In this document: positions 31,935 through 54,131 of the stretch, in pieces
How positions within the stretch are numbered: the stretch's first letter is position 1
Layout: each line of letters opens with the position of its first letter
Origin: Streptomyces mirabilis
GTDB lineage: Bacteria > Actinomycetota > Actinomycetes > Streptomycetales > Streptomycetaceae
Direction of reading: 5' to 3'
NCBI RefSeq assembly: GCF_039503195.1
Contig: NZ_JBCJKP010000001.1
Span: forward strand, 4,154,001 to 4,218,000
DNA: 64,000 nt
The notes under the pieces: model-generated
Databases searched by the model: none
Told to the model about the DNA's origin: nothing
What the model saw: only the letters and a program-made list of their open reading frames with translations
Made by a program: the position numbers and the translations under genes

Positions 31935-33791
31935 TCAGCGAGTGAAGAAGCCTGGCACTCGACCGTCCGGTGTCCCGACGAGGGCTGCCCGGTCGAGCAG
32001 GATGTTGTTGTTCTCGCAGCTCGTCTCGGGGAGCAGTAGACAGGCATGGCAGGCGGCCACGTTCAGGCTGTCCGCGCCGCTCGACTCGGACTCCATGCAC
32101 AGGGGGTCGTTCGAGCACCAGCTCGCTCTATGCAGGGCAGCCCGGAGCGAGGCTTCGAGACGGTCCGGTTCACCCTGGGCGACGACGCCGCCGAGGCTGC
32201 CGGCGGAGTCGCTGGTGGCCGTGTAGACGAGTACGCCTGCCATGCCTTCCTCGCCGTAGATCCGCTCGCGAAGGGAAGCTGCCGGGTAACCGCCGTCCAG
32301 ACTCCATTCGTTGATCAATATGTGTGCCAGGGCATGCAGAAGGAGAAAACGGGGCGTGGCGGGTGAGGGCGGAACCGGCTTGTCCGAGTCGCCGATACGT
32401 GCTGCCAGCAGCCTCTCGTGATTTTCCCGGATCAGGGTGGCGCGAGCGACTTGCCCCGGTTCCTGCTCCCAGACTCGCAGCCGCTCAGGGTCGAGACGAA
32501 CGAACACCCCTTCACCGCTCACTTCGAAAGCCGGCAGCCAACTCGGCCGGTCCAGTGAGATCGCGGCCTCGCGCAGTGGGGAGTCCGCCGGACTCGGTTC
32601 CTCCACGCGCCGGAACGACTGCAGTGCCCTAACCTCGCGCAGTCGCTTGATCAGCATCACCTGAGCCAAGCCATGGGACGAGAGCAGAGCGCCGATCGGG
32701 GTGGTGGGGGGCTCGCAGACGAACTCCTGCTCCTGGTCCGCGACTTCGGGGTGCGGCGTGGACAGGCTCTGGTACTCGCCCTCGTAGATCTCCTGCCGGT
32801 AGTTGCGTGCGCGCTTGGCAAGCTCCGTTCCATCGGCCGGCTCCGTCGCGGCGGCCTCGGCCGCGCGCCGCCGCTCGACCTCGGCCACCACGTCGTTGCC
32901 GGTGTACTCCGGGTGGTGACGCAGCAGTTTCTGCATGCGCACGTACGCCTGGATCGAGGCGGCATCCTCATGTTTGAAGACTTCGTAGTACGGCGCGACG
33001 AGCTTGGCGATGCCCTGGCTCCACGGGGGGATGGAGAGAGCCGAGTACATGACCGGGAACCACACCGAGGAGGAACCGCGCTGGAGGGTGCGCGGTGGCT
33101 CCTGGCAGCTCACGGCTGGAGCGTCCTTGAGCCAGGGGCTACGGCCGGCGCACCGGATGCCGAGGTCCTTGAGGGCCTGCCGTCGGAACGACCCCTCCAT
33201 GGACACCTCCTCCACCCCGCAACTGCAACCGATCAACACGGCACGCAGCGATGCGGTCGAGCCGTCGGCCCGGAACGTCAGTTGCCCCCCGCAGGCCCCG
33301 GATGTCGTCCGGTTGCCCCTATGGAGCCACTTCCAGTAGGGGAAGTCCTCCAGATGGCCGTGCGTGCACGCGATCACGAAGCGGGACGGGACCAGGTTCT
33401 CCTGACAGGTCGAGCACTCGGCCCGGCCGGCGGGCGAGTTGAACTTGCGGAAGGGCTGCAGTTGATGGCAGTTGGGGCATGAGTACATCTCCGGGAAGCG
33501 CACTGCCCGTACGCCGTCCCGGGCCTTGTCGGGATCGGGAGCCGGTGGCATCCGGAAGCCGGAGACGCCCAACTGCCAGGCCAGACGGGGCTCCGAGATG
33601 ACGGGAGCCTCGGAGATGTCCCACGAGTCGATGCCGCGGACGAGGAAGGACTCGTTCTCCACCGCGATCATGGCTCCGACACCGTACGTCGTGATGAGCT
33701 GGGCCCGGCGGATCTCTCCGAGCTTGCGGGCGGTACGGGCCGGGGTCGACGGGAGGCCGCGGCGACGAGTGCGAGGCGGGACGGGGCTCAT
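31935..33791 (-). CDS. drmB: DISARM protein DrmB (DUF1998 domain)
   Basis: A 618-aa protein. Start ATG 33791, three bases after the drmA stop. Visible features: an N-terminal helix (LGEIRRAQLITTYGVGAMIA), zinc-type cysteines in YSCPNCHQLQPF and AECSTCQENLVP, RFVIACTHGHLEDFPYWKW (a DrmB hallmark), more Cys in IGCSCGVEE, LQRGSSSVWFPVMYSALSIP, and the C-terminal DUF1998 region FLLLHALAHILINEWSLDGG with CSNDPLCMES and ACHACLLLPETSCE. In DISARM, DrmA and DrmB form the complex that recognises and blocks incoming phage DNA. A dead second drmB lies at 48735-49867. Confidence 0.92.
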   Translation of the reverse strand: MSPVPPRTRRRGLPSTPARTARKLGEIRRAQLITTYGVGAMIAVENESFLVRGIDSWDISEAPVISEPRLAWQLGVSGFRMPPAPDPDKARDGVRAVRFPEMYSCPNCHQLQPFRKFNSPAGRAECSTCQENLVPSRFVIACTHGHLEDFPYWKWLHRGNRTTSGACGGQLTFRADGSTASLRAVLIGCSCGVEEVSMEGSFRRQALKDLGIRCAGRSPWLKDAPAVSCQEPPRTLQRGSSSVWFPVMYSALSIPPWSQGIAKLVAPYYEVFKHEDAASIQAYVRMQKLLRHHPEYTGNDVVAEVERRRAAEAAATEPADGTELAKRARNYRQEIYEGEYQSLSTPHPEVADQEQEFVCEPPTTPIGALLSSHGLAQVMLIKRLREVRALQSFRRVEEPSPADSPLREAAISLDRPSWLPAFEVSGEGVFVRLDPERLRVWEQEPGQVARATLIRENHERLLAARIGDSDKPVPPSPATPRFLLLHALAHILINEWSLDGGYPAASLRERIYGEEGMAGVLVYTATSDSAGSLGGVVAQGEPDRLEASLRAALHRASWCSNDPLCMESESSGADSLNVAACHACLLLPETSCENNNILLDRAALVGTPDGRVPGFFTR

Positions 33792-33794
33792 GCT

Positions 33795-36700
33795 TCAGCG
33801 CTCCTCGAAGAAGGTGGACGAAGCGTCGACGTCGCGCAGACTCCACAGGGTCTTCCACGGCGAGGCATCGGGCGACTCGTCGTCGTAATTGGCCAACAGA
33901 GCGGGCACGCGGGAGCCACGCGGAGCCTCGTACACGAGGTTCGGGCTGGCCAGCGCCTCGTCCTCCCACCATCCGACGAAGTCCTCGAAGGCCGCTGTGG
34001 TGGACTCGAGCTCGGCCGGCTCGACCGCCGCCACCCGGTCGAGCAGGAGGGCACCGACGGTCTCGCGGAGGTCCATCACGAAGTCCTCTACGCGTGATGC
34101 GGCGTCGTTGTCCCGTGCGGCCGGCAGCATCAACCGGGCCAGAGCCACCACCACGGCGTGCAGTCCTCGGTCGCGGGCCCGGGCGGAGAAGGGGGTCACG
34201 CTGGTGGACTCCACCTCGCGGTACAGGGCTGAGTGGAAGCTCTGGAAGTCCTCGTAGTGTGAACGGTCCCGTGAGCGAGCGGAGTTGAGCATGATCGCGA
34301 CGAGACCGGGATGTTGCCGGCCGACCCGGCTCGTCGCCTGGATGTACTCCGCAGTGGTCTGCGGTTGACCCATCACTGCCATCAGCCCCAGTCGGTCCAC
34401 GTCGACTCCCACGGAGATCATGTTGGTGGCGAGCAGCACGTCGAGTACGTCCGGCATCGGGAGCTGTCGTTCCACGGCCTTGAGCCGGCGGGAGATGTCG
34501 CTGGAATTCGCCCGGCTGCTCAACTCCGTGAGGGCGTCGGCGCGGCGTACCTTGATTCCGTCACGCAGTGCGAGGTGTCCCAGACGCTCCTGGACATCGT
34601 CGAGGACCTGGAGCTCCGCCGCCGAAAGCAGTCGCAGGCTGTTGAAGTAGCCAATCAGGGTCCAATACGCGTCCTTCACCTCAGGCGGAGCATCATGGGT
34701 GTGAGCCCGATGGAGCAGCGACGCGTACACGCGGATCAGCAAGGTGGCCTGGCTGGTGCTGGAGGTCAGCAGGCCGACGTAGCGACGGGCCGCCTTCCGC
34801 TCCCGTGGCGTCTCCACGGCGAACCAGGAATCCCGGGAGTCGAGGCCCGAGGGCGGAAACTGCTCCACCGAACGGGCGAACAGTCGGGTGCCCTGCTCGT
34901 CGGCGCGTCGAATGGTCGCAGTCGAGGCGACGACCTTGGGACGATCCGCCAAGGCGTCCACGGCCGTCTCGTACAGGCCGGTCAGCGTGCCGAGCGGGCC
35001 CGAGATCAGATGGAGCTCGTCCTGGACGATGAGCTCGGGCGGTGGCACTCCGTCCACGTCCCGGTTGAACAGGGCCGCCGACGCGGGTCGCCACGGCATC
35101 GAGGCGAACTTGTCGACCGTTGCGATGACCAAGGTCGGTCGATGGGCGTAGATGGCTTCGTCGATTAGGTGTACCGGCAGCCCTCCCCAGTGGAAGTCGC
35201 ACGTGCCGGAGGGGCAGTTGACGGTCATGCGTACGGCGTCCTCATCGACCGAGTAGTCCGCCGCCCGCAACGATTCGCCGCACCAAGGGCAGTTGCGCAG
35301 TTGGACCGGGTTCTCGGTCTCCAACTGGAAATTTTCGTTGCGCACGAGATCGGCCAGCTTGCTCGTGGCGACGGCCAGCGTGTTGGGGGTCGCCGAACGA
35401 CCCACCCACATGCCGATGGAGATCTCCTCGTGCCCCAGGCTCGCCGGATCGGCTGCCCGCAGTAGTTCCATCGCGCAGATGAGCGCCGCAGCGCGCTCGA
35501 ACTGTTGGAGGGTGAGTAGTCGGAGCGTGTACCGCATGAGCACCGTGACGCCGGCCCCGTCCTCCCCGCCCCGCAGGCGCCTCAGGAAGGTGGTGAAGGC
35601 GATCAGGCCAAGGTACGCCTCCGTCTTGCCACCACCTGTGGGGAACCACAGCAGGTCGGAGACCTTTCGGTCGTCGTGGTCCGGAGCGACGATCCCGGCC
35701 AGGCAGAGCAGGATGAAGGAGATTTGGAAGGGCCGCCACCGCCCGGCCTGGCTATCCGGTTCGCCCGACCTGCCGCCCTTGATCCACGCGGTACGTGCCC
35801 GCTGGTCGGCCATCGCGAGGTTCGCCAGCCGGAACGCGCGCAGAATGTTCGGCTGCTCCGTGTCCTCCAGCAGATCCACGCCTTCGCGCATCCGGCGCAG
35901 TGCTCGCCGGCAGAGCTGGACCTGTTCGGCCGCGATTTTGCCGTGTTCCGTGTCGTGCAACAGGCGGGCCTGACCCTCTTGGGTCTCGATCCACCGCTCG
36001 TATCCGCTCAGCAAGGTGCGAAGGGCCGAGACGACCTCGTGGGTCGGGTCGGTTCCCAGCCGGTACATGGTCAGCGCCTTGTCGTCGATCTCCGGGTTGG
36101 AGTCCGTCAGCAACACCTCCTGGGAGGGGACGAACTCGGTCCGCAGGGTGGTGACGGCCGGAGGATCGATCGATACGGATCCCACCGGAGGTGGCGGCCA
36201 GTCCCAATGCGCCGCACAGCCATGGCCGGTGGCGAAGCTCGGCGCATGGCGGTACAGGAGGCGGCTCAGCGCATGTTCCGAGTCGACCGCGTCCAGAGCG
36301 GTCGGCCGTGCCACGAACACCGGGCTGCTGCCGTCCTCAGCGGTGACGATCAGCTCCGGTTGGTAGAAGCAGTGCGCGTCCCGGAGGTCGAACTGGCCGA
36401 CCTTCAGACTGTTGACGACCGTGGCCGTCACGGTCACCGTCCGGTCCGACTCGGACCGGGGGCGGACCAGCACACGCAGTTCCAGCCCGGGATGGAGGTC
36501 GAAGGGCTTGAGCAGGCCGGGCTGTGTGACGTCCACGTCGACGGGCTCGATCCGCAGGGCGGAACGGCGCCAATGTTCCCGCTGGGCCTTCGTGCTTCGG
36601 GCCTCGGTCCGCTTCGCGGACACCGGATTCCCCTCGGAGTCCTCGGGAGCATAGACGGCAGCGTGTACGGTCAGCCGAATCCGCGCGGACTCGGTCGGGT

Positions 36701-37049
36701 CCACGGCGAATGTCAAACCGATGGATGACGGCATCCGGACGTTTGCCAGCGAGACGCCCAGATCGCCGGGGCCTTCCTCGGGGTCCCGACGGGTGCCGAG
36801 TGGCACCGCGTCGGGCCCGTCCCGCTCGGACTCCAGATCCCCCTGTTCGGCCGGACCACTCTGGGGCGAGATACCGGACCGGTCCGCCTGCGAGCGCGGG
36901 AAGAGCACACCGACCGGGTACATGGTGATCGGCGCATCGTCCGTGAGAACCTCGTCCGGACCACCCACGGGGCCGAGCAGGTCTTGCCGCAGGGCGCCGA
37001 CGAGCGAGTCGCGCACCTCGTAATGTGCTTGGTGAGTCGACCTGCTCAT
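33795..37049 (-). CDS. drmA: DISARM helicase DrmA
   Basis: A 1084-aa SF2-type helicase. Start ATG 37049 (MSRSTHQAHYEVRDSL) overlaps the upstream stop by ATGA. Walker A LLWFPTGGGKTEAYLGL is near residue 470, the DExH-like box IVQDELHLISGPLG near 676, ATATIRRADEQ-type motif III (VVASTATIRRADEQ) just after, and TNMISVGVDVDRLGLM with QATSRVGRQHPGLV (motifs V-VI) near 890-910. The N-terminal 450 residues are beta-rich, as usual for DrmA. It is the motor of DISARM and forms a complex with DrmB, encoded next. Length and motifs fit the family; drmC is absent after drmB. Confidence 0.92.
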   Translation of the reverse strand: MSRSTHQAHYEVRDSLVGALRQDLLGPVGGPDEVLTDDAPITMYPVGVLFPRSQADRSGISPQSGPAEQGDLESERDGPDAVPLGTRRDPEEGPGDLGVSLANVRMPSSIGLTFAVDPTESARIRLTVHAAVYAPEDSEGNPVSAKRTEARSTKAQREHWRRSALRIEPVDVDVTQPGLLKPFDLHPGLELRVLVRPRSESDRTVTVTATVVNSLKVGQFDLRDAHCFYQPELIVTAEDGSSPVFVARPTALDAVDSEHALSRLLYRHAPSFATGHGCAAHWDWPPPPVGSVSIDPPAVTTLRTEFVPSQEVLLTDSNPEIDDKALTMYRLGTDPTHEVVSALRTLLSGYERWIETQEGQARLLHDTEHGKIAAEQVQLCRRALRRMREGVDLLEDTEQPNILRAFRLANLAMADQRARTAWIKGGRSGEPDSQAGRWRPFQISFILLCLAGIVAPDHDDRKVSDLLWFPTGGGKTEAYLGLIAFTTFLRRLRGGEDGAGVTVLMRYTLRLLTLQQFERAAALICAMELLRAADPASLGHEEISIGMWVGRSATPNTLAVATSKLADLVRNENFQLETENPVQLRNCPWCGESLRAADYSVDEDAVRMTVNCPSGTCDFHWGGLPVHLIDEAIYAHRPTLVIATVDKFASMPWRPASAALFNRDVDGVPPPELIVQDELHLISGPLGTLTGLYETAVDALADRPKVVASTATIRRADEQGTRLFARSVEQFPPSGLDSRDSWFAVETPRERKAARRYVGLLTSSTSQATLLIRVYASLLHRAHTHDAPPEVKDAYWTLIGYFNSLRLLSAAELQVLDDVQERLGHLALRDGIKVRRADALTELSSRANSSDISRRLKAVERQLPMPDVLDVLLATNMISVGVDVDRLGLMAVMGQPQTTAEYIQATSRVGRQHPGLVAIMLNSARSRDRSHYEDFQSFHSALYREVESTSVTPFSARARDRGLHAVVVALARLMLPAARDNDAASRVEDFVMDLRETVGALLLDRVAAVEPAELESTTAAFEDFVGWWEDEALASPNLVYEAPRGSRVPALLANYDDESPDASPWKTLWSLRDVDASSTFFEER

Positions 37050-38962
37050 CCTTCGTTCCCTTCCCGTCCGTCCGCGTACCACTGGAAGCGCCCCAGACCG
37101 CACAACCGGGGTGCGACCCACGCGCCGTGTGTACCCAGCCCGGCGGCCTCGGTCGCCGCAGGAATGCCCGCCACGCTCTCCACGCATTCGACCCGGAGAC
37201 CGGTGATCAGCGGCGGCCAGCGATCGACCTCAGAGTGCGCGGTGCGGCGCAGCATTCGGTGCAGGTCGGTGCGGAAGCGCTCCGACACCACCGCGATCTG
37301 TCGGCCACCGACCACCACCGCGTACGGTGGGGACTGGTCGGCGGCGACGGGGATGCCGTGCAGCAGCACGAGTTCCGCCTCGGCACCGGCGGTGACGTCG
37401 GCCAGGAGGTACCGCGACACCTCCGCAGCGTCCTGGTGAATTCCCTCCGTGCCCGGAGGCTGCTCGTGGGACACGTCCGAGCCGATCATCTCGATGCCGT
37501 TGCGGGCCCAGGTGCTGCGACCACCCAGGTACCAGCGGTCGATCCTCTTGTCCTTACGGAGGAGCCACGAGTTGGGGGCGTCCAGGACGTACAGATCATC
37601 CCGGGTCCGGGTCATGGCCACATACAGCAGCCGGGCTTCCGCCGCCGGGTCGTAGTCGTACTTCTTCTTCCGGACTTGGGCCGGCTCCTTCAGCACGCGT
37701 GGTTCGACGATCAGGACCCGGTCGAACTCCAGGCCCTTGGCCCGGTGCACGGTCGAGATCACGAGGGATGACGACTGGGCCGCGGTGAGCTCGTCGGGCA
37801 GCCGGCCCTCAGCGAGCGCCCGGTGCAGCCCGACGACATCGACGGTGCCGCGGCCGCTGCCCCGCGCCACCTTGCGCACCGACCGCCACAGCGCCTCCGG
37901 TGTGCTGCCGGCTGGGCCCTTCAGGTCGACCAGCAGTTCTTCGAAGCGCTCCCGACTCAGAGTGGACGCGCCAGTCGAGGCGAGGAGTTCGGCGATCCAC
38001 ACAGGGGCCGAGCGCTCGCGCGCCGACCGCTGCAGTGTGTGGGGGACATCGGCGTCGGCCAACATGTCGGACAACGTCAATGCCTGGCCGTTGTCGCGGC
38101 ACAGGATGGTGGTGGTGTCGGGATAGTCGCGCAGTGCTGCCCGCACGAACTCGTCCTCCAGGCTCCCGAAGTTCGGTGCCGAGAGCAGCAGAGCACGCAG
38201 GTCGCCGTGGATACGCTCGGCCTCGGCGGCGGACTCGGCCCGATCGCGGGGCAGCCGCTGCAACTGGGCACCGTAGGGCAGGGCCATTCGGGCAGCCTCG
38301 CTGCGGGCCCGGAAATTGTCGCCCAGATGGATTTCCACCAGGTCCTCACCGAAGGTGGCGCGCACCCAGGCCAGGAAGCGGTCGGTCTCCTCGGCCCGCT
38401 GATCCGGATCGGACACCTGGAATCCGTACACCGCCTGAGCCGAATCACCCACCACGGTGAAGCCGCTGTTCTCCTGGAACCGGTCGAGCAGTGCCTCGAC
38501 CATCTCCCGACGGACACCCACGAGGTCCTGAACCTCATCGATCACCACATGGGCGGGCAAGTACTCGCCGCCCTCGACCGCCCCCTTGTCGATCGCCTCG
38601 GTGGCGGCCTCGATGCGCTCGTCGAAGGTGTACGTCCCCCAGTCCGTGTCCGGGTAGGCGCGGTTGAGCAGAGCTGCAGCCCAGGCGTCGAAGGTCTGCA
38701 CACGAATCCGCTGCGCGGCGGCGGCATGCCGCTCGATCCGCTCGGTGAGTTCGCGCACGGCGGCACGGGAGAAGCTGAGCACCAGGATCTCCCCGGCCTC
38801 CAGTTCCTCGCGCTCCACCAACACGTCGAGCCGCCGCACGAGGGTGTGCGTCTTGCCGGCGCCGGCACCGGCCGTGACCAGCACCCGGGCGTCCCAGGGC
38901 TGGTCCACCACGGCCTGCTGCGCGTCGGTGAGTCGATGCTCGGTGAGCGGGGTGACGGTCAC
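37046..38962 (-). CDS. UvrD/Rep-type SF1 helicase
   Basis: About 638 aa. The GTG at 38962 gives a GTGA overlap with the upstream stop and a GAGGG-like site; GTG 38977 would add five residues. SF1A motifs: TAGAGAGKTHTLVRRLD (I), VIDEVQDL (II), VGDSAQAVYGFQ (III), LGDNFRARSE (IV), STVHRAKGLEFDRVLI (V), YVAMTRTRDDLYV (VI). The C-terminal 130 residues form a separate domain without recognised motifs. No nuclease motif is apparent. Coupled on both sides (ATPase-helicase upstream, DrmA downstream), so it belongs to the same system; UvrD-like proteins are not standard DISARM parts. Confidence 0.9.
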   Translation of the reverse strand: MTVTPLTEHRLTDAQQAVVDQPWDARVLVTAGAGAGKTHTLVRRLDVLVEREELEAGEILVLSFSRAAVRELTERIERHAAAAQRIRVQTFDAWAAALLNRAYPDTDWGTYTFDERIEAATEAIDKGAVEGGEYLPAHVVIDEVQDLVGVRREMVEALLDRFQENSGFTVVGDSAQAVYGFQVSDPDQRAEETDRFLAWVRATFGEDLVEIHLGDNFRARSEAARMALPYGAQLQRLPRDRAESAAEAERIHGDLRALLLSAPNFGSLEDEFVRAALRDYPDTTTILCRDNGQALTLSDMLADADVPHTLQRSARERSAPVWIAELLASTGASTLSRERFEELLVDLKGPAGSTPEALWRSVRKVARGSGRGTVDVVGLHRALAEGRLPDELTAAQSSSLVISTVHRAKGLEFDRVLIVEPRVLKEPAQVRKKKYDYDPAAEARLLYVAMTRTRDDLYVLDAPNSWLLRKDKRIDRWYLGGRSTWARNGIEMIGSDVSHEQPPGTEGIHQDAAEVSRYLLADVTAGAEAELVLLHGIPVAADQSPPYAVVVGGRQIAVVSERFRTDLHRMLRRTAHSEVDRWPPLITGLRVECVESVAGIPAATEAAGLGTHGAWVAPRLCGLGRFQWYADGREGNEG

Positions 38963-41900
38963 TGGCCCTCGCTCCACAGGTACTCGAACTCGGTGAAGGC
39001 GAGTTCCTCGCCGAAGTTCGTGATGTTGTCCCGCACGTTCAGGATCAGGCAGCTCTCCTTGCCACCGTTCTTCGGGCCGCGCAGACCGCGTCCGATCATC
39101 TGCTGGTAGATGTTCGGGCTGTACGTCGGGCGAGCCACGACCACGACGCGGGTGGCCGGTGCGTCGAAGCCCTGGGTGAGCACGCCGTAGTTGGTCAGGA
39201 CCTGGATCCTGCCCTTGCGGAAGTCGTCGATCTGCTTACGACGTTCATTGGGGGGCGTGGTCGAGTCGATCGCGGCGGCCTTGATGTCCCGGTCACCGAG
39301 CTTGGCGGCCAGTAGCTTGGCGTGAGCCACGGAGGTGGCGAACACCAGCACCGGCCAGTCGGAGGGCATGGCGGCGATCTCGTCGACGATGCGCTGGCTG
39401 CGTCCGTGGTCCTCGGCCAGCCGCTGCTCGGCGCCCTTGGGCAAGGTGGAGAATTTCTCGGACTGGGCACGCTCGTCCGCCGTCAGCGCGATGTCGGCGC
39501 CCACTAGTTCTCGGTGCTTGACCTGGGCCAGGACACCGATCTGCTGCAACCCCTTGATGGCGACGGACAGATCGCCGTCGAAGACGCCGGTGTCGAGGCG
39601 GTTGCCGAACCGCTGCACCAGCAGCCGGGTCAGTTCCTCGTTGTTCCGGTACGGGGTCGCGGTGAGTCCGATCAGGTGACGACTGGTGCGGCGGTGCGTG
39701 AGGTCGAGCTGTTCGAGCAGCCGTGTGTAACGCGGGGACATCGCGGTGTGCGCCTCGTCGATGATGACGAGTTCGGCAGCCTCCCTCAGCCAGGCGTAGT
39801 CCTCCTTTTCCAGGCAGCTGTCCAGTTTGGCGTCGGTGGCGACGACCAGGTGCGGACGTCCGTCGACGGGGGTCGCCTCGTTCGAGGCCCAGAGCCGGCT
39901 GATGACCAGGGGAAGCTCGGGACCCACCTTCGACCAGACGAACTTCCAGCTCTGCACGGCCTGCTCGCACAGCTCTTCGGTCTGGGCGATCCACAGGACC
40001 GGACCGGGCAGATCCTTCCGATCACGGATCCACCGGATCACTCCCTCCGCCGTGACGCGGGTCTTGCCGGATCCGGTCGGCAGGCTGAGCATGCCGCGCT
40101 GGGGCATCGAGTTCTCCAGCAGAGCGAGCAGCGCCTGCGCGAGTTCCTCCTGGTAGGGGTGCAGGGAAGGGAACTCTGACGGACCGTCGACCTCGAGGCG
40201 GGGCTCCAGCGAGGGCACCTGGGCGCCCGCGAACGAGTCCGGGAACCCGAGGTCGGTGACGAAGCGCAAGGCCTTCGTGTTCCCGGTGAAGGAGCTGGGG
40301 GCGCGGGTGGGGAAGTCCAGAGCGAGATCCCGGGAGTGGACCCGAAGGATCGCTTCGCCGTGGGCGTTGAAGGCCATCTCGGCGATGCGCCGAGGGTTCG
40401 GTTCGGCGCCCTGCTCCTGGATCTCGCTCTCCATCAAGCCAGGCGGAAGTTCGCCACGCAAGGCCTCCTCACCGATCAGCAGAGCGATCTTGTCGATGAC
40501 GCTCTCGCTTTCCCGCACAGCGCGCAGCCGCCCCAGCAGAGCCTGGTCGTGCTCCTGCCTGTCCTGGAGAGCGAGGGCCTGGTTGCAGCCGGCCACGCCG
40601 AAGCCCCACTTGAACTCCTCATCCGCGGCCTGCAGAACCTGCAGCCGGTCGAGGGAGTCCAGTACGAACAAGGTCTGGCCCTTCCTCGCGAACTTGAGCG
40701 ACTTCCGCTTGCTGCCCATGGGCGTGCGCACCACCTGCTCGAGCTCAGAGCAGCGCTGGATCTTGTAGCTGCTGCCTGCCTGACCGAGGCGCGCCTTGAC
40801 GGTCGTGAACTCCTCGAACAGGGACACGGCCCGCCCGGTCTTGACGGGCTCGATCTCTCTGCTGATGACGTCGGAGACCTTGAGCATCCCCCATTCCTCG
40901 ATCATCTCCTTCGCCGTGGCCACGTCCGCCTTGTCGGTGACCAGGAGCGCGGGGAGGCGCTCACGGACGAGCTCCTTGAACTCCACCTCGTTCAGCGCGA
41001 CGGCGATCTCGTTGTCGGCGCGTCCTTCCCAGGAGGACCCCACCCGGCAGCGGGTGAGCACGTCTTCCGGGAACTCGAAGCCGACCCGGTGCAGCAGGGC
41101 GTACGCACGACCGATGAAGGCGTCGTCCTCGCTCTCGAGTACGAGGTCCAACAGCTTGCCCCAGCGCCGGGTGGGCACCTCGTCGGAGGTCGTGGGCATG
41201 TTCAGCTTCCGCGCCGTCTCCTCCGCGATCTCGGCGACAGGGAGCACGGCGCGGAAAGCCTTGAGCTGGGGACCGACGGCCTCGGACACCCGGGTCAGTC
41301 CCAAGGAAGTCTTCACGAGGCCATGCTTGGAGATCATCCAGCGCAGCGGGGACATCACGGCCTTGCGGGTGCTGGTGGTGGCTCCGTACTGCATCTGCCA
41401 GTGCTGCGAGATGTCGGACGCCGGCAGAGCCGCCACGAAGGCAGCGCGGCCCTCCTCGGACAGCGCGGGCAGCAGGTGCAGCGGCCCCAACGTCGCAGCA
41501 CCCTCGACCGAGAGGCGGGAAATGCTGGGCCGGGGGGCGGCGCTCGGCAGACTGCGCAGGTGCGAGTCGTGAACGACCTGTCGGTACTCCTCGAACCACG
41601 TTTCCTCGTGGGGCCGGTATCCGCCGGTAGGGCGATCGAACAGCCCTAGGTCGCGGAAGACCGGTCTGTCGCTCTCGTGGAAATCCAGGTCGACGGCGAT
41701 GGCCTTGTCGCGGTTTCCGTCGCGGGGCACCACCGGTCCGGGCAGGAGGCAGTCGCGCATCAGCCTGTAACGACCGTCCAGGGTACGGACGCGCAACGTC
41801 TCCAGCGGCTTGGGCACCTTGGCACGAATGCGGTCGACGTTCGCGCTACCGCCGGCGCTGCGCAGCAGGATCCAGAAGTTCGACCACGAGTTGTCGTCGT

Positions 41901-43758
41901 AGTTGTCGAACCCCTGATCGAGGACGCCCTCGAACCGTCCCTGCGCATCGGCGACCCTGATGCCGATGTTGTGCAGATGCCGCGCCATTTCGGAGCGCTC
42001 GGAGATCGACGGGTGGACGTAGACCATGTCGTCGCGGAGTGTGTCGGCGGCGGTTCGGTGGAAGATCTCACCGGCTACGGGTGCGACGACCCCGTGCTCC
42101 TCGGTCAGCACGATCCGGGCCTTGCGGGCCTCGGCGGTGAGCGGGGAGTCCCCGCGCAAGCGTCCGGCCTGATCCTTGAGCACCATCAGCGACAGGATCT
42201 CGATGGCGTGGCACGAGGCCTCCGCGGAGCCGTCGGCGACGAGCGCCTCGAGCCAGTCCTTGACGTTCTCGGGCGTCTTCCCGGCCGCGTCGAGGATGTG
42301 CGTCATCTTGCCGCGGCGGAGGGCGGTGTCGGAGGCATCGACGGATGGGTGCACCCAGTTGGTGGGGCGGCCGCTGTACTCCGACCAGATCCGGACCCAT
42401 TCCTTGTCAAGATTCGACGGCGTGATGAACAGGTCGCGAGGGACTTGGAGTTCGCCGTTCTGGTCGGGCAGGGAGGGGCGCTGGGCAGCTATTTCCCACA
42501 CTTGCCGGAGGAAGTAATCGTCGGCCCAGTTGAGCTTCTCCTTGGTGCGGCCCGGCAGCAGGGGAAGATATGCGGCGGGGTCCTCGGCAGGCACAAGCCG
42601 GGGCAGGGTATCGATCACCAACCGGGCCGCGACCTGCAGCAGTTCCCGGTTGAAGGGGCTGCCGTCCAGAAGGTGCTGTCTGTCCTCGTTTGTCTTCCAT
42701 GGGGCGTTCAGGATGCCGGTCAGCGACACCTCGTACTTCGTCGGGAAGAACGCCCAGAACGATCCCCTGCCGACGGGTGTGGTGTACAGGCCGTTGCGGA
42801 CGCTGTATTCGGGCACCGCCCAGGAGATCTCCAGCACCGGGCGGTTGTGCAACTCGCCGGCGGTGTCCGCGACCTTGTCGGTGGGGGAGTGGGCCACAGA
42901 GAACACCTTCCACTGCTCGGTGGTCTGCTTGGCGCCGCGTGCCACTTCCTTGAGGGTGCGGTGGATGCCCTTGGGTTCGATCGAGATCTCCCTGCGCGCG
43001 GGGGGCATGGTGCGCTCGTCGTGCAGGAGTACCTGGCCGACGTGGGAGGAGAACAGCTGGAAGTGAGCAGGGAAGGCTTCCGTCACCCGCCCACTGCGAC
43101 TCCTGTACCCGCTGATGTCCCGTCCGAGACGCTCTGCGGCACCGGGCATCAGGGGCAGGCGGACGACGGTGGTCGCCCAGCGCAGGAGCTTGTCCAGCAC
43201 GTTGTCGTCGGAACGTTCCTGTTCGACGTCGAGGGGCCGGGCCATGCGGAGCACCGGGGTGTCCATGTCGATGTCGCCCTGCCAGCCGATGGCCTGGGCG
43301 ATCTCGGCGGCCGACCATTCCCGGTCGAAGCCGAAACCGAAGGCACCGTTCCCGCTGAAGAACTGGGGCGAGTCGCTCACGGAGAGCACGGACTTGACGC
43401 CGACGCCGAAGCGGCCGATCTGCCCCCCGCGCTTCCGCGAGACACTCATGCGCAGGATCGTCTCGGCGCCCTCCGGCGTGACCGGAGTGCCTTCGTTCGC
43501 GCAGTAGAGGTGGTTCTCGGTCAGGACGACGTGCAGCTTGCCGCCGGGTGATGCCGCGATCTCGTCCGCCGCGTTCTGGACGAGTTCGAGCAACTGCCTT
43601 TCGCCGTAACCGCCCTGGGTGATACGACGCTCACCGTTGGCGTGCTCCTGTATCAGCCCCGGGTCGACCTGATACGTCTTCAGGACGGTCGAGGACTGTC
43701 GGATCACGGTGTCGATCACGGGCGGGAGCGAAGGGTCGGCCAACTGCCGGTCGGTCAT
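38959..43758 (-). CDS. HSP90-type (sacsin-like) ATPase fused to an SF2 helicase
   Basis: A 1599-aa protein. Start ATG 43758 (MTDRQLADPSLPP), with an AGGTG-type site; the open frame runs 22 codons further. The N-terminal GHKL ATPase has its N-box QLLELVQNAADEIA at about residues 55-68, YCANEGTPVTPEG, and GRFGVGVKSVLSVSD near 115-130, as in HSP90/sacsin. A long middle region (about 900 residues) has no motif I can name. The C-terminal 450 residues are a DEAD/DEAH helicase: LSLPTGSGKTRVTAE, LVIIDEAHTAMS, LIGLTATPYR, VLTQGFDAPATR and QMIGRGLRG. It is coupled to the UvrD gene by GTGA. Such fusions occur in anti-phage loci. Confidence 0.88.
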   Translation of the reverse strand: MTDRQLADPSLPPVIDTVIRQSSTVLKTYQVDPGLIQEHANGERRITQGGYGERQLLELVQNAADEIAASPGGKLHVVLTENHLYCANEGTPVTPEGAETILRMSVSRKRGGQIGRFGVGVKSVLSVSDSPQFFSGNGAFGFGFDREWSAAEIAQAIGWQGDIDMDTPVLRMARPLDVEQERSDDNVLDKLLRWATTVVRLPLMPGAAERLGRDISGYRSRSGRVTEAFPAHFQLFSSHVGQVLLHDERTMPPARREISIEPKGIHRTLKEVARGAKQTTEQWKVFSVAHSPTDKVADTAGELHNRPVLEISWAVPEYSVRNGLYTTPVGRGSFWAFFPTKYEVSLTGILNAPWKTNEDRQHLLDGSPFNRELLQVAARLVIDTLPRLVPAEDPAAYLPLLPGRTKEKLNWADDYFLRQVWEIAAQRPSLPDQNGELQVPRDLFITPSNLDKEWVRIWSEYSGRPTNWVHPSVDASDTALRRGKMTHILDAAGKTPENVKDWLEALVADGSAEASCHAIEILSLMVLKDQAGRLRGDSPLTAEARKARIVLTEEHGVVAPVAGEIFHRTAADTLRDDMVYVHPSISERSEMARHLHNIGIRVADAQGRFEGVLDQGFDNYDDNSWSNFWILLRSAGGSANVDRIRAKVPKPLETLRVRTLDGRYRLMRDCLLPGPVVPRDGNRDKAIAVDLDFHESDRPVFRDLGLFDRPTGGYRPHEETWFEEYRQVVHDSHLRSLPSAAPRPSISRLSVEGAATLGPLHLLPALSEEGRAAFVAALPASDISQHWQMQYGATTSTRKAVMSPLRWMISKHGLVKTSLGLTRVSEAVGPQLKAFRAVLPVAEIAEETARKLNMPTTSDEVPTRRWGKLLDLVLESEDDAFIGRAYALLHRVGFEFPEDVLTRCRVGSSWEGRADNEIAVALNEVEFKELVRERLPALLVTDKADVATAKEMIEEWGMLKVSDVISREIEPVKTGRAVSLFEEFTTVKARLGQAGSSYKIQRCSELEQVVRTPMGSKRKSLKFARKGQTLFVLDSLDRLQVLQAADEEFKWGFGVAGCNQALALQDRQEHDQALLGRLRAVRESESVIDKIALLIGEEALRGELPPGLMESEIQEQGAEPNPRRIAEMAFNAHGEAILRVHSRDLALDFPTRAPSSFTGNTKALRFVTDLGFPDSFAGAQVPSLEPRLEVDGPSEFPSLHPYQEELAQALLALLENSMPQRGMLSLPTGSGKTRVTAEGVIRWIRDRKDLPGPVLWIAQTEELCEQAVQSWKFVWSKVGPELPLVISRLWASNEATPVDGRPHLVVATDAKLDSCLEKEDYAWLREAAELVIIDEAHTAMSPRYTRLLEQLDLTHRRTSRHLIGLTATPYRNNEELTRLLVQRFGNRLDTGVFDGDLSVAIKGLQQIGVLAQVKHRELVGADIALTADERAQSEKFSTLPKGAEQRLAEDHGRSQRIVDEIAAMPSDWPVLVFATSVAHAKLLAAKLGDRDIKAAAIDSTTPPNERRKQIDDFRKGRIQVLTNYGVLTQGFDAPATRVVVVARPTYSPNIYQQMIGRGLRGPKNGGKESCLILNVRDNITNFGEELAFTEFEYLWSEGQ

Positions 43759-43808
43759 GAGGCACCTGTCTCGAATGAGAGAAACGAACCGAGGACACGT
43801 GGGGGATC

Positions 43809-43839
43809 GGGGGTGCCGGTGCATGAGGCCGGCACCCCC
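43809..43839 (-). terminator. Perfect hairpin between the small basic gene and the ATPase-helicase gene
   Basis: GGGGGTGCCGG (43809-43819) pairs perfectly with CCGGCACCCCC (43829-43839) over a nine-base loop. It lies in the 125-bp gap after the stop at 43884 and before the start at 43758, so it either ends the small gene or attenuates read-through into the helicase operon. Confidence 0.7.
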
Positions 43840-43883
43840 GGTGAAACAAATCAGGACAGCTTATGAGAAAAAGCAGAGGGGGA

Positions 43884-44276
43884 TCAGCTGTTGATGGTGG
43901 TGACCGTGGTGACGGTCGTGACCGTGGTGACGGTCGTCGTCACGGTCACGACAGTCGCGGTTCGCTTGGCCGTGCGGATCTTCTTGGTGCGGGTGACCTT
44001 GATCCGGTAGGTGCGGGGGCTACCGACGCGCCGAGGGGTGGTGGGGCGGCGGGTGGCACGGGTACGGAACGTGCGGGGCACGTGCGGGACGAAGGGGGTG
44101 GTCGTCTGCTGCTCCGTGGGCTGACTCTGCGCGCGGCGGGCGAGACGCCGCCGCTCCGACGCCAGAATCTGGGGGTGGATACCGTGACACATCAGAAGCT
44201 CGGCGCGGAGATCGGGGTCCTCCGTCTTGTCGTACTCCTTGATGAACCACGCCATCCAGGCCTCATCGTCGTTCAT
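43884..44276 (-). CDS. Small basic protein with Thr/Val repeat tail
   Basis: A 130-aa protein of unknown function. Start ATG 44276 (MNDDEAWMAWFIKEYDK), preceded by GGGAGGGG. The acidic N-terminal 40 residues are predicted helical (AELLMCHGIHPQILASERRR). A middle of Arg/Thr/Pro-rich segments (about residues 55-105) follows, then a C-terminal tail made of Val-Thr-Thr repeats (TVVTVTTTVTTVTT). On the plus strand the tail is an 18-bp tandem repeat GTGACCGTGGTGACGGTC (twice) plus partial copies. The basic middle could bind nucleic acid; the tail is likely extended beta and aggregation-prone. First gene of the minus-strand defence run. Confidence 0.65.
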   Translation of the reverse strand: MNDDEAWMAWFIKEYDKTEDPDLRAELLMCHGIHPQILASERRRLARRAQSQPTEQQTTTPFVPHVPRTFRTRATRRPTTPRRVGSPRTYRIKVTRTKKIRTAKRTATVVTVTTTVTTVTTVTTVTTINS

Positions 44277-44597: not shown

Positions 44598-46688
44598 ATG
44601 GAGGACGACACCGAGGACTTCGGCATGTGGCTTGGGCGCCAGCTGCGCCGCAAGGGGATCTCGCAGGCGGAGTTCGCCAAGCGGCTGGACCTGACGCGCG
44701 CGGCGGTGTCGGCGTGGGTCACCGGCAGGGCGCAACCACGCGCGGAGGTGATGGTCAGGATCGCCGAGATCCTGGAGACGGACGTCGCCACCCTGGTCAC
44801 CAGGGACGCCGACGCCGGATCGGCCCGACCGATCGGCTGGTATCACCGGATCGCCCACCATGACGGCGGCCGGGAGTACGGTAACGCGGCCGCCTTCGCC
44901 TTCGACGCGAACCTGGCCGTACTGGCCCGGGAGGTCACGCAGAACTCCTTGGACGAGCGGCTGGACCCGCGGCGTCCGGTGCGGGTGCGCTTCACCCTGC
45001 ACGAGCTGACCGGTGAACACCTGCACTCCTTCCTGTCCGCGCTGAAGTGGGACGAGCTGGAGCCCCACTACATGGCGGCGGCACAGTCCCGGCAGAAGGT
45101 CGGCCGGGTCCTCGCAGAGGGACTTCGGGCCTTGCGTGAGGACTCCTCTCTTCTGCTTCTCCGGGTGGACGACTACAACGCCTCAGGGCTTACCGGGCCC
45201 GAGTACGGGGACGGCCGGTACGCCGCTGTGGTCCGCCGGCAGCTCGACAGTCACAAAAGCGACGACCGGGCCGGTGGTTCGTACGGGCTGGGGAAGGCCA
45301 CCCTGTGGGCAGCCAGTCGGCTCGGTCTGGTGCTGATCAACAGCACCCTGTCCGAGACGTATGAGGGGCGGACGGCCCGCCGGGTGGTCGGACGTCTCGA
45401 CCTTCCCTGGCGAGAGGTCGACGGAGTCGCCTACGCCGGACCTGCCTGGCTCGGTGAGTCGGACACGGAGAAAGAGCACGAAGGTGTCTCCCGCTCCTGG
45501 TGGGCGGACGAGCGTGTGGTCGCCGATCTGCGACTCGATCGGGACAGCGATGATCCGGGAACTTCCTTCCTCGTCGTCGGTGCTCACGACGCGGGCGGCA
45601 ACAACGACACCCTGGAGGACCTGCACGAAGCCCTCAGCCGGGCGCTGGCCGACAATTTCTGGGCCGCCATGACCTCCGGCCGTTCGACGTCGGCCACGCT
45701 GGAGGCATCGGTCCGCGCTCTTCGCAATGGTGAATTCGCGGTTCCGGAGAAGCGGGTCGATCCGCTCGAACGGCACCCGGCGCTGGCCCACGCACTCCGG
45801 GCGTACATCGACGGCGAGACGGTCGACGAGCTCACGGCCACCGGACAGGTCGCCGCCGTGGAGGTCGATCTTGCCGTCCCGCCGCTGCGGGCCGCCGGGC
45901 GCAGGGCTGAAGGACACAGCCACCGTGCCGTACTCCTGGTCACTCCTGCCGCCGACAAGGACGAGGAGCACAGCCGCATCACCTGTATGCGCGGGACTCG
46001 CATGACTGTTACGACCCGACGTCCTCGCGGCCTGCGGCCGGGAGTGGACCCCTTCCAAGCCGTCCTGCTCGCCGGTTTCGCCACTGGCGACGACGGCGCG
46101 GCGACTCACGCCGCCGAGGCGTTCCTACGAGCCGCCGAGCCGCCGGAGCACGACAGGTGGGGGGCGACGGAGGAACTCACCGCCGCCTATGCCAACGCGC
46201 CTCGGCGATTGACCGAGTTCAACGCGGCCATGGACTCGGCGCTGCGGGGCGTGATCGGTCGGCGGACTGTCGGTCAGGGGTCGACCGGCCCTGAGGTCCT
46301 CCGGAAGCTGCTGCGCCTGGATGTGCCCGCCGAAGTGAGCGGTCGTCGTGGCCAGAGACACCCGCTCGTGGACCGGGTCGTCGGGAAGGTGGACAAAGAC
46401 GGGGCCTGGACCTTGGACGTGACGCTGACCGTCCCGCAGCGCGACGACCGCTGGCTGCTACTGCCGGTGGTCAAGTTCGATGTGCGATCAGGGGGACGTC
46501 CTTCATTGGAGTGGGCGGAGCTGTCCGCGACGGAAAACTGCGAGATCGTCGACGGCAGGCTGCTCGTCGATCCGGACGTACGGTCGGCTCGCTTCGGTGG
46601 CGTCACGGCTGTCGGCAGCCACCCGGTGGCCGCCGCCATGGCCGGTGTGATCGTGGACATCCAGCAGGCACGGGAGGCTTCGGCGTGA
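44598..46688 (+). CDS. XRE-HTH protein fused to a GHKL (MutL/MORC-like) ATPase
   Basis: A 696-aa protein. Start ATG 44598 with GGAGGTGGGG ahead. An N-terminal XRE helix-turn-helix (residues 10-70: LRRKGISQAEFAKRLDLTRA, AVSAWVTGRAQPR) is followed by a GHKL ATPase with N-box LAREVTQNSLDERL, G1 RVDDYNASGLTGPE and G2 GGSYGLGKATLWAAS. The C-terminal half (about 350 residues) has no named motif. Similar MutL-like ATPases occur with Z1 proteins, Vsr and C5 methylases in predicted restriction/defence operons; here a Z1 relic, vsr and two methylases lie across the island. Stop overlaps the next start by GTGA. Confidence 0.85.
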   Translation: MEDDTEDFGMWLGRQLRRKGISQAEFAKRLDLTRAAVSAWVTGRAQPRAEVMVRIAEILETDVATLVTRDADAGSARPIGWYHRIAHHDGGREYGNAAAFAFDANLAVLAREVTQNSLDERLDPRRPVRVRFTLHELTGEHLHSFLSALKWDELEPHYMAAAQSRQKVGRVLAEGLRALREDSSLLLLRVDDYNASGLTGPEYGDGRYAAVVRRQLDSHKSDDRAGGSYGLGKATLWAASRLGLVLINSTLSETYEGRTARRVVGRLDLPWREVDGVAYAGPAWLGESDTEKEHEGVSRSWWADERVVADLRLDRDSDDPGTSFLVVGAHDAGGNNDTLEDLHEALSRALADNFWAAMTSGRSTSATLEASVRALRNGEFAVPEKRVDPLERHPALAHALRAYIDGETVDELTATGQVAAVEVDLAVPPLRAAGRRAEGHSHRAVLLVTPAADKDEEHSRITCMRGTRMTVTTRRPRGLRPGVDPFQAVLLAGFATGDDGAATHAAEAFLRAAEPPEHDRWGATEELTAAYANAPRRLTEFNAAMDSALRGVIGRRTVGQGSTGPEVLRKLLRLDVPAEVSGRRGQRHPLVDRVVGKVDKDGAWTLDVTLTVPQRDDRWLLLPVVKFDVRSGGRPSLEWAELSATENCEIVDGRLLVDPDVRSARFGGVTAVGSHPVAAAMAGVIVDIQQAREASA

Positions 46689-47659
46689 GCGCCGTGTACG
46701 CGTATCCGACCTTGGTGGGGAAGATCGAGGTCACCGTTCGAGGGGCGACCATAGACGGGAAGCCGCTGCAGCTCTCGCTGATCTCCCAACGCGATCAGGT
46801 CGTCGCCCTCCATCAGATCGAGCGGGACGACTGGACCGAAGGCGTACTCGATCTCGAAGTCTCCCTCCCCATGGACGAATTGGCCGACGGGCCGTGGTCC
46901 AGAGTCACCTGCGTCGCCGTACTGTCCGAGGGAGCCACCAACACCCGCAGGGTGAGTCGCCTGGAACGCCGTCGTGACGACACCCACTGGCGAGGCGAGG
47001 TCCGAGTGCGCCGCTCCGCTCACGTGGCGCGCGCTGTCCTGGACGTGAGCGTCGTCGGCAGTCACGGTGGAGTCGACGGGCGTGTTCTCGGCACCACTGA
47101 TACGCCCTGGATCGTGGACCTGCTTGCCCGTACTCCCACGAGACAACGCGATCTGGAGATCCTGGAGGAGGATTTCCGGGACGGTCCGCAGGAGTGGCTG
47201 CGTTCGTTCATGGATGCGCCTTGGTTGATCGACGCCACCGGAGACGTGCCGGCCGTCCTGCTCAACACGTCCTTCGAGGGTCTTCCCGAGCTGCTGTCCG
47301 GTGCTCGTGGCCCGTTGGAGAAGGCAACCGCGGGACTCGTGGCCGCGCAGATCGCGGGAGAGGCGTGGGCGACGATGTTCCACTCCGCGCTGAGCGACCT
47401 CGAGTTCGATGAGGACGGCACTCCGCGCTTTCCTGGTGGATGGCGGGAGTCGGTGCTGCGCTCCATGCTTCCCGAGGTGTTTCCCGGGCTGCCCCTCTCC
47501 GAGGCCTTGGGTGAGGCCCACAGCCGCCGAGGTGACGGCCGAGGATGGGCAGAGGTCCAGTCGCGGATCCAGTTCGCCGCCGGAAGACGCGGCCAGGTGC
47601 CCAAGAATCTGACGGCGGCCATCCGTGCCGTAACCCGTGCCCAGGAAATGAGCCGATGA
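46685..47659 (+). CDS. Unrecognised defence-operon protein
   Basis: A 324-aa protein I cannot assign. Start GTG 46685 overlaps the ATPase stop by four bases. The N-terminal 130 residues alternate as beta strands (LQLSLISQRDQVVALHQI, GVLDLEVSLPMDEL, WSRVTCVAVLSEG); the C-terminal 200 are mostly helical with conserved-looking Trp (WLRSFMDAPWLIDATGD, GEAWATMFHSAL). No Walker, nuclease (PD-(D/E)XK) or zinc motif is evident. It is coupled to the ATPase and to the DUF6339 gene, so it likely forms a complex with them. Confidence 0.75.
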   Translation: MSAVYAYPTLVGKIEVTVRGATIDGKPLQLSLISQRDQVVALHQIERDDWTEGVLDLEVSLPMDELADGPWSRVTCVAVLSEGATNTRRVSRLERRRDDTHWRGEVRVRRSAHVARAVLDVSVVGSHGGVDGRVLGTTDTPWIVDLLARTPTRQRDLEILEEDFRDGPQEWLRSFMDAPWLIDATGDVPAVLLNTSFEGLPELLSGARGPLEKATAGLVAAQIAGEAWATMFHSALSDLEFDEDGTPRFPGGWRESVLRSMLPEVFPGLPLSEALGEAHSRRGDGRGWAEVQSRIQFAAGRRGQVPKNLTAAIRAVTRAQEMSR

Positions 47660-48561
47660 GCCGACACCGCATCGAGCCCCCCGAACGGCTCGCGTTGCTC
47701 CCCGGTCACGTCGCCACGGCCTTCCTCACCCATGGGGTACGCGCGGGACAGGACGGCCTGCCGCAGGTGGCGATCCTCCGGGCGAGCACGCCGATCGAGA
47801 GCGACTCCGCTCGATGGAACGCTGCCCCGGTGCGGGAGATCGTAGAGGAGGCGATGCATAGGTTCGATGCGGCGCGGACCGACGCCGATGCCTGGCTGGC
47901 GCCTCGGCTGCACGCGACCCTGCGAATGACCCGAGCCGAGGCGGCGAAGCCCGGTCTGTGGAACTTCCTGGCCCTGGCCGTCGCGCCGGACTTCGTCTTG
48001 TGGCGGCACATGCCGTCCGGGGAGTCCGGCGACGGCGCGCTCAGGAAGGTCAACAGCGCCAGGTTCGTAGGTCCTCACTACAGCCAAGCCTTCGCCCGAC
48101 TGTGGTGGGCCGCCGAGATGTTCCGTGACGGGCCCGATTACACCCCCGCGGAGATCGCCTGCCGCAATCAGGACATGACCAACACAGCGCTCCGGCTCGC
48201 TGTCATCGATCACAAGCCCACCGCGCTGGCCCTGGTGCGGGTCCTCAAAGGGCTGGCCGACGAGGGAGCCACACGACTCGGGGATCGGGTCAACGCGCTC
48301 TGTACGGCAGTCAATACGGCTGGCAGCACGCTCATGTACGAGGTGATCGCTCCGGACGAGGCGCCCGACCACCACGCGCTCACCGACTGGATCGACGATG
48401 CGGAATCGGCCCCGGCTGTTCCGTGGGACCGGCTTCCCGGAGGGCCGGACGACGGCACTGCCCGGCGTTCCTCCTGCGAGGTCCTGTCGCGGATGTTCGA
48501 GCGATTCGCCGCAGAGGCGCCGTTGCGTGACCGGGCTCGGTCCGGGGCGGCGCACGCTTAG
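47656..48561 (+). CDS. DUF6339-family protein
   Basis: A 301-aa protein. Start ATG 47656 overlaps the previous stop (ATGA). It matches what I know of DUF6339: RATLRLTRAEA-type segment (LHATLRMTRAEAAKPGLWN), FLALAVAPDFVLWRH, RFVGPHYSQAFARLWWAAEM, DYTPAEIACRNQDMTN, and KPTALALVRVLKGL. No enzyme motif is known to me for the family. Third gene of the coupled ATPase operon. The C-terminal 60 residues are Pro/Arg-rich and variable. Confidence 0.75.
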   Translation: MSRHRIEPPERLALLPGHVATAFLTHGVRAGQDGLPQVAILRASTPIESDSARWNAAPVREIVEEAMHRFDAARTDADAWLAPRLHATLRMTRAEAAKPGLWNFLALAVAPDFVLWRHMPSGESGDGALRKVNSARFVGPHYSQAFARLWWAAEMFRDGPDYTPAEIACRNQDMTNTALRLAVIDHKPTALALVRVLKGLADEGATRLGDRVNALCTAVNTAGSTLMYEVIAPDEAPDHHALTDWIDDAESAPAVPWDRLPGGPDDGTARRSSCEVLSRMFERFAAEAPLRDRARSGAAHA

Positions 48562-48734
48562 AAGTTGCTGTCTTTCCGAACTTGAGGACCGCGTTTTCGC
48601 TGGTCGGGCATAGGGCGGACGTTTCCGTGGGAGTGGTGGCGTGTCGTGTCGTAGCTCCCGTGGAGGTCGTGGATGCCGTCGGTCGTGGGGCTGCTGGAAC
48701 AGCGCGAGGTCGCCGCGCGCCGTCGCGTGCGGCC

Positions 48735-49867
48735 TGACCCCTCGCACCCTCCAGCGCGGTTCCTCCACCATGTGGCAACCGGTACTGAAGTCGGCGCTCT
48801 CCATCCCACCGTGGAGCGACGGGCGCGCCGATCCGCTCGCCGAGCACTGGGACGAGCTGCGCAAGCTGAACAGCCGCGCGGAGGTCGAAATGCCTCAAGT
48901 TCGTGTTCAAGGGCGAGAGCCCGGTCCCGGTCGACGAGGTGATGGCACTCCTCGACGCTGAACGCGAGGAGGACCCCACCTTCGACCACCGCTACCGTGC
49001 CCTGCGCAACAAGGAGTACGAACGGCTCCGCTCCGGGAACGACGAGAGCGAGCGCTCCCGCGACGAACAGTTCATCTGCGAGACCCCGCTCGGCGACTCG
49101 GCCCCCTCGGCCCTCTCGGTGTCGCCGGCCCTATGTTGGTGAAGAAACTCCGCGAGGTCCGTGCCCTCAAGGCGTTCACCCGGCTCGCGGACCCCAACTC
49201 GACCAACGAGGGCAACGAGGGCAACGAGGCCGCGCTCTCCGCCTCGGAACTGACCTGGCTCCCCGCCATGGAAGTCCGCAGCGAGGGTGTCTTCCTCCGG
49301 CTGGTCGACGAACGACTCGACGCCTGGTCACGCGCGACCGCCGTGGCGGCGCGCGCCGAGCGGATACGCACCGCGCGCCGGAGGGTCATGGAGCAGCGCG
49401 CAGCCGACCCCACCCGGGTCCCGCCCTCCCCGGCGCCCCCCGGATGGTGCTGCTCCACACCCTGGCCTGTCCTCATCAACGAATGGAGCCTCGACGCCGG
49501 CTACCCCGCCGCCGCGCTTCGCGAGCGTCTCTACGCCGACGACGACATGGCAGGGATCCTCGTCTACACCGCGACGAGCGACTCCGTGGGCAGCCTCGGT
49601 GGGCTCGTCGCCCAAGGGGAACCGGACCGCCTCGCCCGGACGATCCGCTCGGCTGTGCGTCGCGCCGAGTGGTGTTCCTCCGACCCGCTCTGCGTCGAGT
49701 CCGAGGCATCCGGCACCGGCGGCACCAACCTCGCCGCCTGCCACGCCTGCGTGATGCTCCCGGAGACGAGCTGCGAGCACAACAACAGCCTGTTGGACCG
49801 TGCGCTGCTCGTCGGTACCCCGGACGATCCTCATCTGGGCTTCTTCGCGAACGTACTGGAGCAGTGA
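48735..49867 (+). pseudogene. Second, decayed drmB (DUF1998) copy
   Basis: Only the last two thirds remain. PRTLQRGSSTMWQPVLKSAL is close to the same segment of the intact DrmB. After RAEVEM (about 48895) the frame shifts to KFVFKGESPVPVDEVMALL; after SALSVSPAL (about 49130) it shifts to VKKLREVRALKAFTRL; near 49440-49475 two compensating shifts disturb the conserved LHTLAHVLINEWS region (now CCSTPWPVLINEWS). The tail CSSDPLCVESEASG and ACHACVMLPETSCE to stop 49867 is intact. It is opposite in strand to the functional drmB and different enough to come from another DISARM system, not a recent duplication. Confidence 0.85.
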
Positions 49868-50291
49868 CATCCAGCTGACCGTGGGGCACGACACAGATCG
49901 GCGCCCTGTACCACGACGTCTCGGTAGGGCCGGGGACTGGCGCGGCAGCTGTAGCTCCCTTTCCAGTCCCCGCCGCGTCACGCCGCGCAGGCCATTCTCT
50001 CGCACGTAGCTTTCCGCCCCGCTCGCCGGCCGACATGCGCCGTCGACCTGTGCGCGTCTCCAGTGAAGTAGTAGCCCCAAGCCCGAGGCTCCACCCGCGT
50101 TCGCAGAGCGCTCTGGCGCGGACGACGGCGATGAGATGCGGCGCGGTGCGGTGCGGTCACTGTCCGCCGGCGGGCGTGGGCGGACTCGACGCGGTGCTGA
50201 CGCCGGATGGTCGGGTCAGGCCTCCTTTCCACGACGTGGCGCGCCCAACCTCCCGGCTGGTCTCAGGATGACGCCTCGCTACCCTGCCCCC
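49868..50291. other. Right edge of the island: non-coding DNA with a hairpin
   Basis: About 420 bp without a convincing gene. GCCGGGGACTGG (49929-49940) and CCAGTCCCCGCC (49963-49974) form 12-bp arms (11 of 12 pair) around a 22-base loop, just after the drmB relic. At the far end TACCCT (50280-50285) precedes the next gene. No tRNA, integrase or obvious attachment site is seen. Confidence 0.5.
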
Positions 50292-54065: not shown

Positions 54066-54131
54066 CGAACCACCGCGCCACACCACGTATGAACTCCCCG
54101 GATTCACTGTCATCGGCTGAAGGGAGGGGCG

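Follow-up and report, generated by a model that had tools for sequence, protein, structure and literature searches.

Can the DrmA-DrmB core of DISARM (defence island system associated with restriction-modification) belong to a conserved system whose other members are two large helicases? The question is raised by a 64,000-nucleotide stretch of the genome of Streptomyces mirabilis, a soil bacterium (contig NZ_JBCJKP010000001.1, positions 4,154,001 to 4,218,000; hereafter the window). In it a minus-strand run encodes a small basic protein, a 1599-residue protein that we call sacH, a UvrD-type helicase, DrmA and DrmB, where the initial annotation had placed them. The two classes of DISARM are marked by DrmD with DrmMI or by DrmE with DrmMII. 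We conclude that the system is DISARM-like and well conserved, and that it is not class 1 or class 2 DISARM because DrmC and the class markers were looked for and not found. The operon as first proposed, built on DrmAB, joined by two non-canonical helicases and without a drmC, drmD or drmE match, is kept beyond this genome.

The gene order sacH-uvrD-drmA-drmB is widely maintained. Among 199 genomes of the genus, sacH is present in 37 and UvrD in 33 (both at E<=1e-60), DrmA in 79 (E<=1e-40) and DrmB in 78 (E<=1e-25); these counts are lower bounds, because for each genome the searches scored 2-11 candidates, the best of a first look. The initial annotation had held that the association would be accidental if the helicase genes rarely accompanied drmAB elsewhere; they lie next to drmAB in 33/33 genomes. 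sacH is within 200 bp of all 33 UvrD matches, drmA follows within 600 bp in 33/33, and drmB is within 100 bp of drmA in 32/33, the other genome (G144) being split over contigs. Identity to the proteins of the window ranges across the 33 from 54 to 100% for DrmA (47% for the short G144 piece) and from 46 to 100% for DrmB. Some matches are partial: uvrD of G070 covers residues 3-389 only, sacH of G171 is in two pieces, and drmA of G144 lies over two contigs. The remaining four sacH genomes comprise G172 and G097, which carry a related operon, as the own genome of the window does at another position, and G150 and G067, in which helicase-only matches stand beside another drmA.

A UvrD scan of contigs gave 23 loci in Streptomyces, Kitasatospora, Embleya, Actinacidiphila, Catellatospora and Streptosporangium records. 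The order is the same in all 22 loci with enough sequence; the twenty-third contig stops inside uvrD. Genes are split at a few of these loci, namely sacH in two pieces at L012 and L015, and uvrD at L028. Across 396 genomes sampled from the phylum, 24 had DrmA (E<=1e-40). The closest outside the genus (G370, DrmA 52%) has sacH-uvrD-drmA-drmB followed by an SF1 (superfamily 1) helicase of a family with a nuclease-related domain (NERD); this locus, from another actinobacterial family, thus combines both partner types (L080, 4330-17263). The next closest (G468, 46%; locus L081) has uvrD-drmA-drmB, and sacH was not found there.

The proteins themselves support these assignments. DrmA matches the DrmA structure PDB 7s9v at E=6e-174. 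sacH joins a sacsin-type GHKL/HSP90-like ATPase (NF047352 P_loop_sacsin, 67.5 bits, above the cut-off of 50), a long middle region and a RadD-like SF2 (superfamily 2) helicase, for which the RadD-like match of 117 bits is under that family's cut-off of 720 and PF04851/PF00271 also match. UvrD has a further folded region at its C-terminus (about 470-636) whose fold was unrecognised. Nucleotide-binding and helicase motifs, named by ourselves, are kept in 120 sacH rows and 117 UvrD rows, taken from the best 120 of 1626 sacH and the best 120 of 1526 UvrD relatives with short sequences excluded. The last four genes are tightly packed, as first described. With the likely starts, uvrD and drmA overlap in ATGA and sacH and uvrD in GTGA, and drmA and drmB are three bases apart (Table 1). 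The start of drmA is probably ATG 37049 because homology matches at many loci begin near residue 52, and that of uvrD is probably GTG 38962 because its homologues are 638 residues long. The small basic protein does belong to the run by position; there are, however, 125 bases between its gene and the sacH ATG downstream, the gene was found in just 4 of the 23 related loci, and its longer open reading frame (ORF) gave no match in the protein-family libraries scanned.

Table 1. Genes and gene remnants in and around the operon, by position in the window
Feature	Coordinates	Strand	Evidence or remark
Vsr-type endonuclease gene, 147 aa	28976..29419	+	Pfam PF03852 E=5e-15; PADLOC Vsr
C5 cytosine DNA methylase MT1, 323 aa	29416..30387	+	PF00145 146 bits, profile positions 2-322 of 324
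Second C5 methylase-like protein MT2, 407 aa	30476..31699	+	PF00145 72.5 bits; PADLOC MTase_II 336 bits
drmB (MZB/DUF1998 domain), 618 aa	31935..33791	-	NCBIfam NF038324 DrmB_fam 482 bits, cut-off 240
drmA, probable ATG 37049 (ORF to 37187)	33795..37049	-	NF038325 DISARM_DrmAS 1008 bits, cut-off 950
UvrD/GajB-like SF1 helicase, about 638 aa	37046..38962	-	
sacH, 1599 aa from ATG 43758 (ORF to 43824)	38959..43758	-	
Small basic protein, 130 aa, lineage-restricted	43884..44276	-	Recognisable in 4/23 related loci
Helix-turn-helix + GHKL ATPase (paraMORC-like), 696 aa, divergent	44598..46688	+	HTH_3; PADLOC PDC-M33A 76 bits
c8, about 324 aa, probable start overlaps preceding stop (GTGA)	46685..47659	+	Kept in 22/23 related loci
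DUF6339 protein, about 301 aa, start inferred from frame	47656..48561	+	PF19866 47.5 bits (cut-off 23.2); PADLOC PDC-M33C 25 bits
Degraded second drmB copy, several frames	48641..49867	+	Far end of the drmB-DUF6339 block

The operon resembles DISARM in that two neighbouring genes encode orthologues of DrmA and DrmB and that DNA methylases are near. It differs in its sacsin-SF2 helicase and UvrD within one operon, in a DrmA on a separate branch, and in the absence of DrmC. The possibility had been raised that drmC lies just outside the operon in relatives; drmC stands beside 0/33 cassettes. No DrmD or DrmE was among the PADLOC matches listed for the proteins of the scanned cassette (the best 25 families for the methylases and UvrD). 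MT1 matches DrmMII models at 87 bits, far under the DruM2 (299 bits) and MTase_II (226 bits) models. A DrmC search of 41 genomes (the 33 and eight with a DrmC-type DrmA) returned 12 strong matches (E<1e-20). Eleven are directly beside other drmA/drmB genes, which served as a positive control and include the 8.59 Mb system of the own genome, and the twelfth, a fragment, is in G139, where its contig has no listed drmA. The gene after drmB was confirmed as DrmC in L061 and L097 (375 and 368 bits).

The initial annotation saw no nuclease, "as in DISARM proper"; that comparison is mistaken, since DISARM typically has DrmC, a phospholipase D (PLD) nuclease (PMC9142583; here and below, statements on cited papers refer to the portions of them covered here). 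We infer a different effector step in this variant. Alternatively, this could be a DISARM-type system in which nuclease cleavage is still the last step, with a PLD or other nuclease supplied by the host in trans and UvrD and sacH acting as accessory processivity factors, which we consider somewhat unlikely. DrmC is apparently non-essential despite being typical, and recruitment of other PLD nucleases has been proposed (PMC9142583). In addition, 13 of the 33 genomes have weak matches to the DrmC model away from the cassette, and six have DUF4420 at another locus (the PF14390 model matches 0/14 control genomes). However, the weak matches say little because the same DrmC model matches 9/14 control genomes (E<=0.001). 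Where related subtypes have a NERD, the domain is encoded within the operon itself. This suggests retention of a dedicated nuclease when one is needed, and no conserved nuclease was found with the present type.

A census of neighbours supports the separation from DrmC. We scored the 92 drmA loci from the DrmA search of the genus genomes, finding neighbours with small home-made profiles; L153 and L154 were not counted. DrmC is present at 26 loci without any of three SF1 families (UvrD of the present type, the NERD-helicase and the small c3), and at 62 loci one of these families is encoded in the direction of drmAB and DrmC was not found. None of the 92 has DrmC together with any of the three. 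Four have neither partner, two of which (L120, L127) are cut by a contig end. The 62 consist of 33 loci of the present type, 3 with sacH and the NERD-helicase, 5 with the NERD-helicase, c3 and the GHKL trio described below, 19 with a sigma-70-type protein family and c3 (type D), and 2 with the NERD-helicase, one cut inside the operon; L138, counted as a NERD-helicase locus, stops just past the drmA frame, with its downstream side outside the contig. Five DrmC calls are weak at 34-40 bits (L098, L148, L149, L150, L152); the DrmC search above confirmed L149 (E=9e-22). In type D, the Pfam SF1 matches of c3 are below cut-offs (one member scanned) and the PADLOC NERD+UvrD/GajB models match weakly. 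The exclusion covers the three SF1 families and not UvrD helicases as such, because 11 of the 26 DrmC loci have a helicase of another UvrD family, c5. It is divergent in ten of these; at L096 (377-5369), c5 shares the strand of drmC and lies about 1.6 kb past it.

A FastTree phylogeny of 116 DrmA rows places the present type (45 rows, including L080) on one side of a branch with support 95, and the 29 DrmC-bearing rows on one side of another (support 98). L081 adjoins the present type, and long branches (L080, L081, L099 and others) limit how the deep order can be read. The census suggests that drmAB is a portable sensor or motor whose partner is either DrmC or an SF1-type helicase from one of three families.

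Several of the other drmAB loci have contents of their own. Of the type D loci (L066, L070-L079, L121-L126, L128, L133), the scanned member, L074, has sigma-70 regions 2-4 in its upstream or divergent family; a small SF1-like protein lies downstream of drmAB, and some loci have McrB/McrC-like genes near. At L064, L065, L067, L068 and L069, GHKL proteins with long N-terminal additions stand beside c8, DUF6339, methylases and NERD-helicase-drmAB, and in the protein of L068 (1212 aa), the one scanned, this addition contains sigma-70 regions. The own genome has two further systems. The second operon (L060 4535-18424; 6.8625-6.8764 Mb) reads sacH2, NERD-family SF1 helicase, drmA, drmB, with two C5 methylases beyond drmB and no DrmC match. 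The third system (L061 733-15893; 8.576-8.591 Mb) includes DrmC, a UvrD helicase in divergent orientation and a protein of 2075 aa that matches the PADLOC PDC-S37/MkoC/Hhe models.

The surroundings of the operon are conserved as well. A single C5 methylase had been reported as a convergent neighbour; there are two, preceded by a Vsr gene, and C5 methylase matches within 15 kb in 32/33 genomes argue against an incidental presence (PF00145 also matches in 10/14 control genomes). Beyond the coordinates first annotated lies a divergent trio of GHKL, c8 and DUF6339 genes, whose marker DUF6339 is 8.5-9.1 kb from uvrD in 32/33 genomes. The GHKL motifs of the 696-aa ATPase, read by eye, are near-invariant across 28 rows, and the Pfam scan gave no GHKL match for it. 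c8 had no match in Pfam or PADLOC. The DUF6339 protein has a confidently predicted structure (pLDDT, the predicted local distance difference test, of 91) without a convincing match in a PDB comparison. Both the GHKL and the DUF6339 protein fall under the PADLOC candidate PDC-M33, which, with paraMORC-type restriction-modification (Iyer et al. 2008, PMC2292703), is among the closest known systems. The combination that defines the latter, a GHKL ATPase with a C5 methylase and Vsr, occurs in the window. The methylases and the trio are parts of a paraMORC-type restriction-modification system, and the DrmAB operon adjoins the methylating half of a restriction system that has lost most of its own cutting parts.

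The census also suggests that the variant has acquired the half of another restriction system that marks DNA. It is improbable, in our estimate, that the paraMORC-type system and a separate sacH-UvrD-DrmAB system are independent neighbours in one defence hotspot. The Vsr gene nearby and the resemblance of the UvrD- and RadD-like helicases to repair enzymes could also indicate an anti-plasmid or genome-maintenance device, rather than an anti-phage one, in which the helicases process aberrant single-stranded DNA or R-loops; we find this very unlikely, as the patchy presence (33/199), the shared hotspot and the DISARM core point to defence.

Comparison with other known systems locates the variant further. 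DISARM is the only branch that consistently keeps the helicase and the DUF1998 module in separate genes, and it typically includes DrmC (PMC12458937). ARMADA type II shares a YprA-family helicase and a GajB/UvrD-like helicase in one operon (PMC12458937); here, in contrast, the DUF1998 part has its own gene (DrmB) and is not fused to YprA, and the ARMADA type II markers BrxHII, PglX and RelE are not among the matches listed for the cassette proteins. Nor is GajA, the nuclease that stands next to GajB in Gabija, among the listed matches (the best 25 families for UvrD and the methylases). The sacsin-type N-terminal part of sacH matches PADLOC TmtA (147 bits, residues 42-475), but the match is confined to roughly the initial third of the TmtA profiles, and a limited literature search by name gave no description of TmtA. 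The paralogous L060 operon has the same order of sacH, SF1 helicase, drmA and drmB without a DrmC match, and differs in its SF1 helicase: the relative scanned from that helicase's family (L062) has an N-terminal NERD. The covered portion of PMC12458937 describes no sacsin or UvrD partners of DrmAB. The sacH-UvrD-DrmAB combination is not described in those of PMC9142583, PMC2292703, PMC3710099, PMC8011034, PMC10952713 and PMC10693628, or in a wider literature search covering few subscription papers and main texts without supplements.

The window shows an uncommon layout of the whole. The methylases usually lie on the DUF6339 side, but in the window and G137 they lie on the drmB side; the layout of the window is the usual one with the drmB-DUF6339 block inverted. 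By gapped tblastn, the degraded drmB shares 46% identity with the intact DrmB of the window over residues 226-616 and 55% with that of L021 over 233-619; it is nearer to the DrmB of L021-L025 than to the intact copy beside it in the window. We would guess that the inversion took place via the two drmB copies. A SEC-C-motif protein gene (24903-25931) is found beside stand-alone and hybrid loci alike and is probably the anchor of the hotspot. Genes for an HAD hydrolase, DUF5753, a bacterial PH-domain protein and others without assignment (50136-58070) make up the remainder of a lower-GC island.

In the sampled genus, the present type is about as abundant as DrmC-bearing DISARM (33 versus 26 drmA loci in 199 genomes). 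It bears on a question about DISARM itself, namely how DNA is destroyed when DrmC is dispensable.
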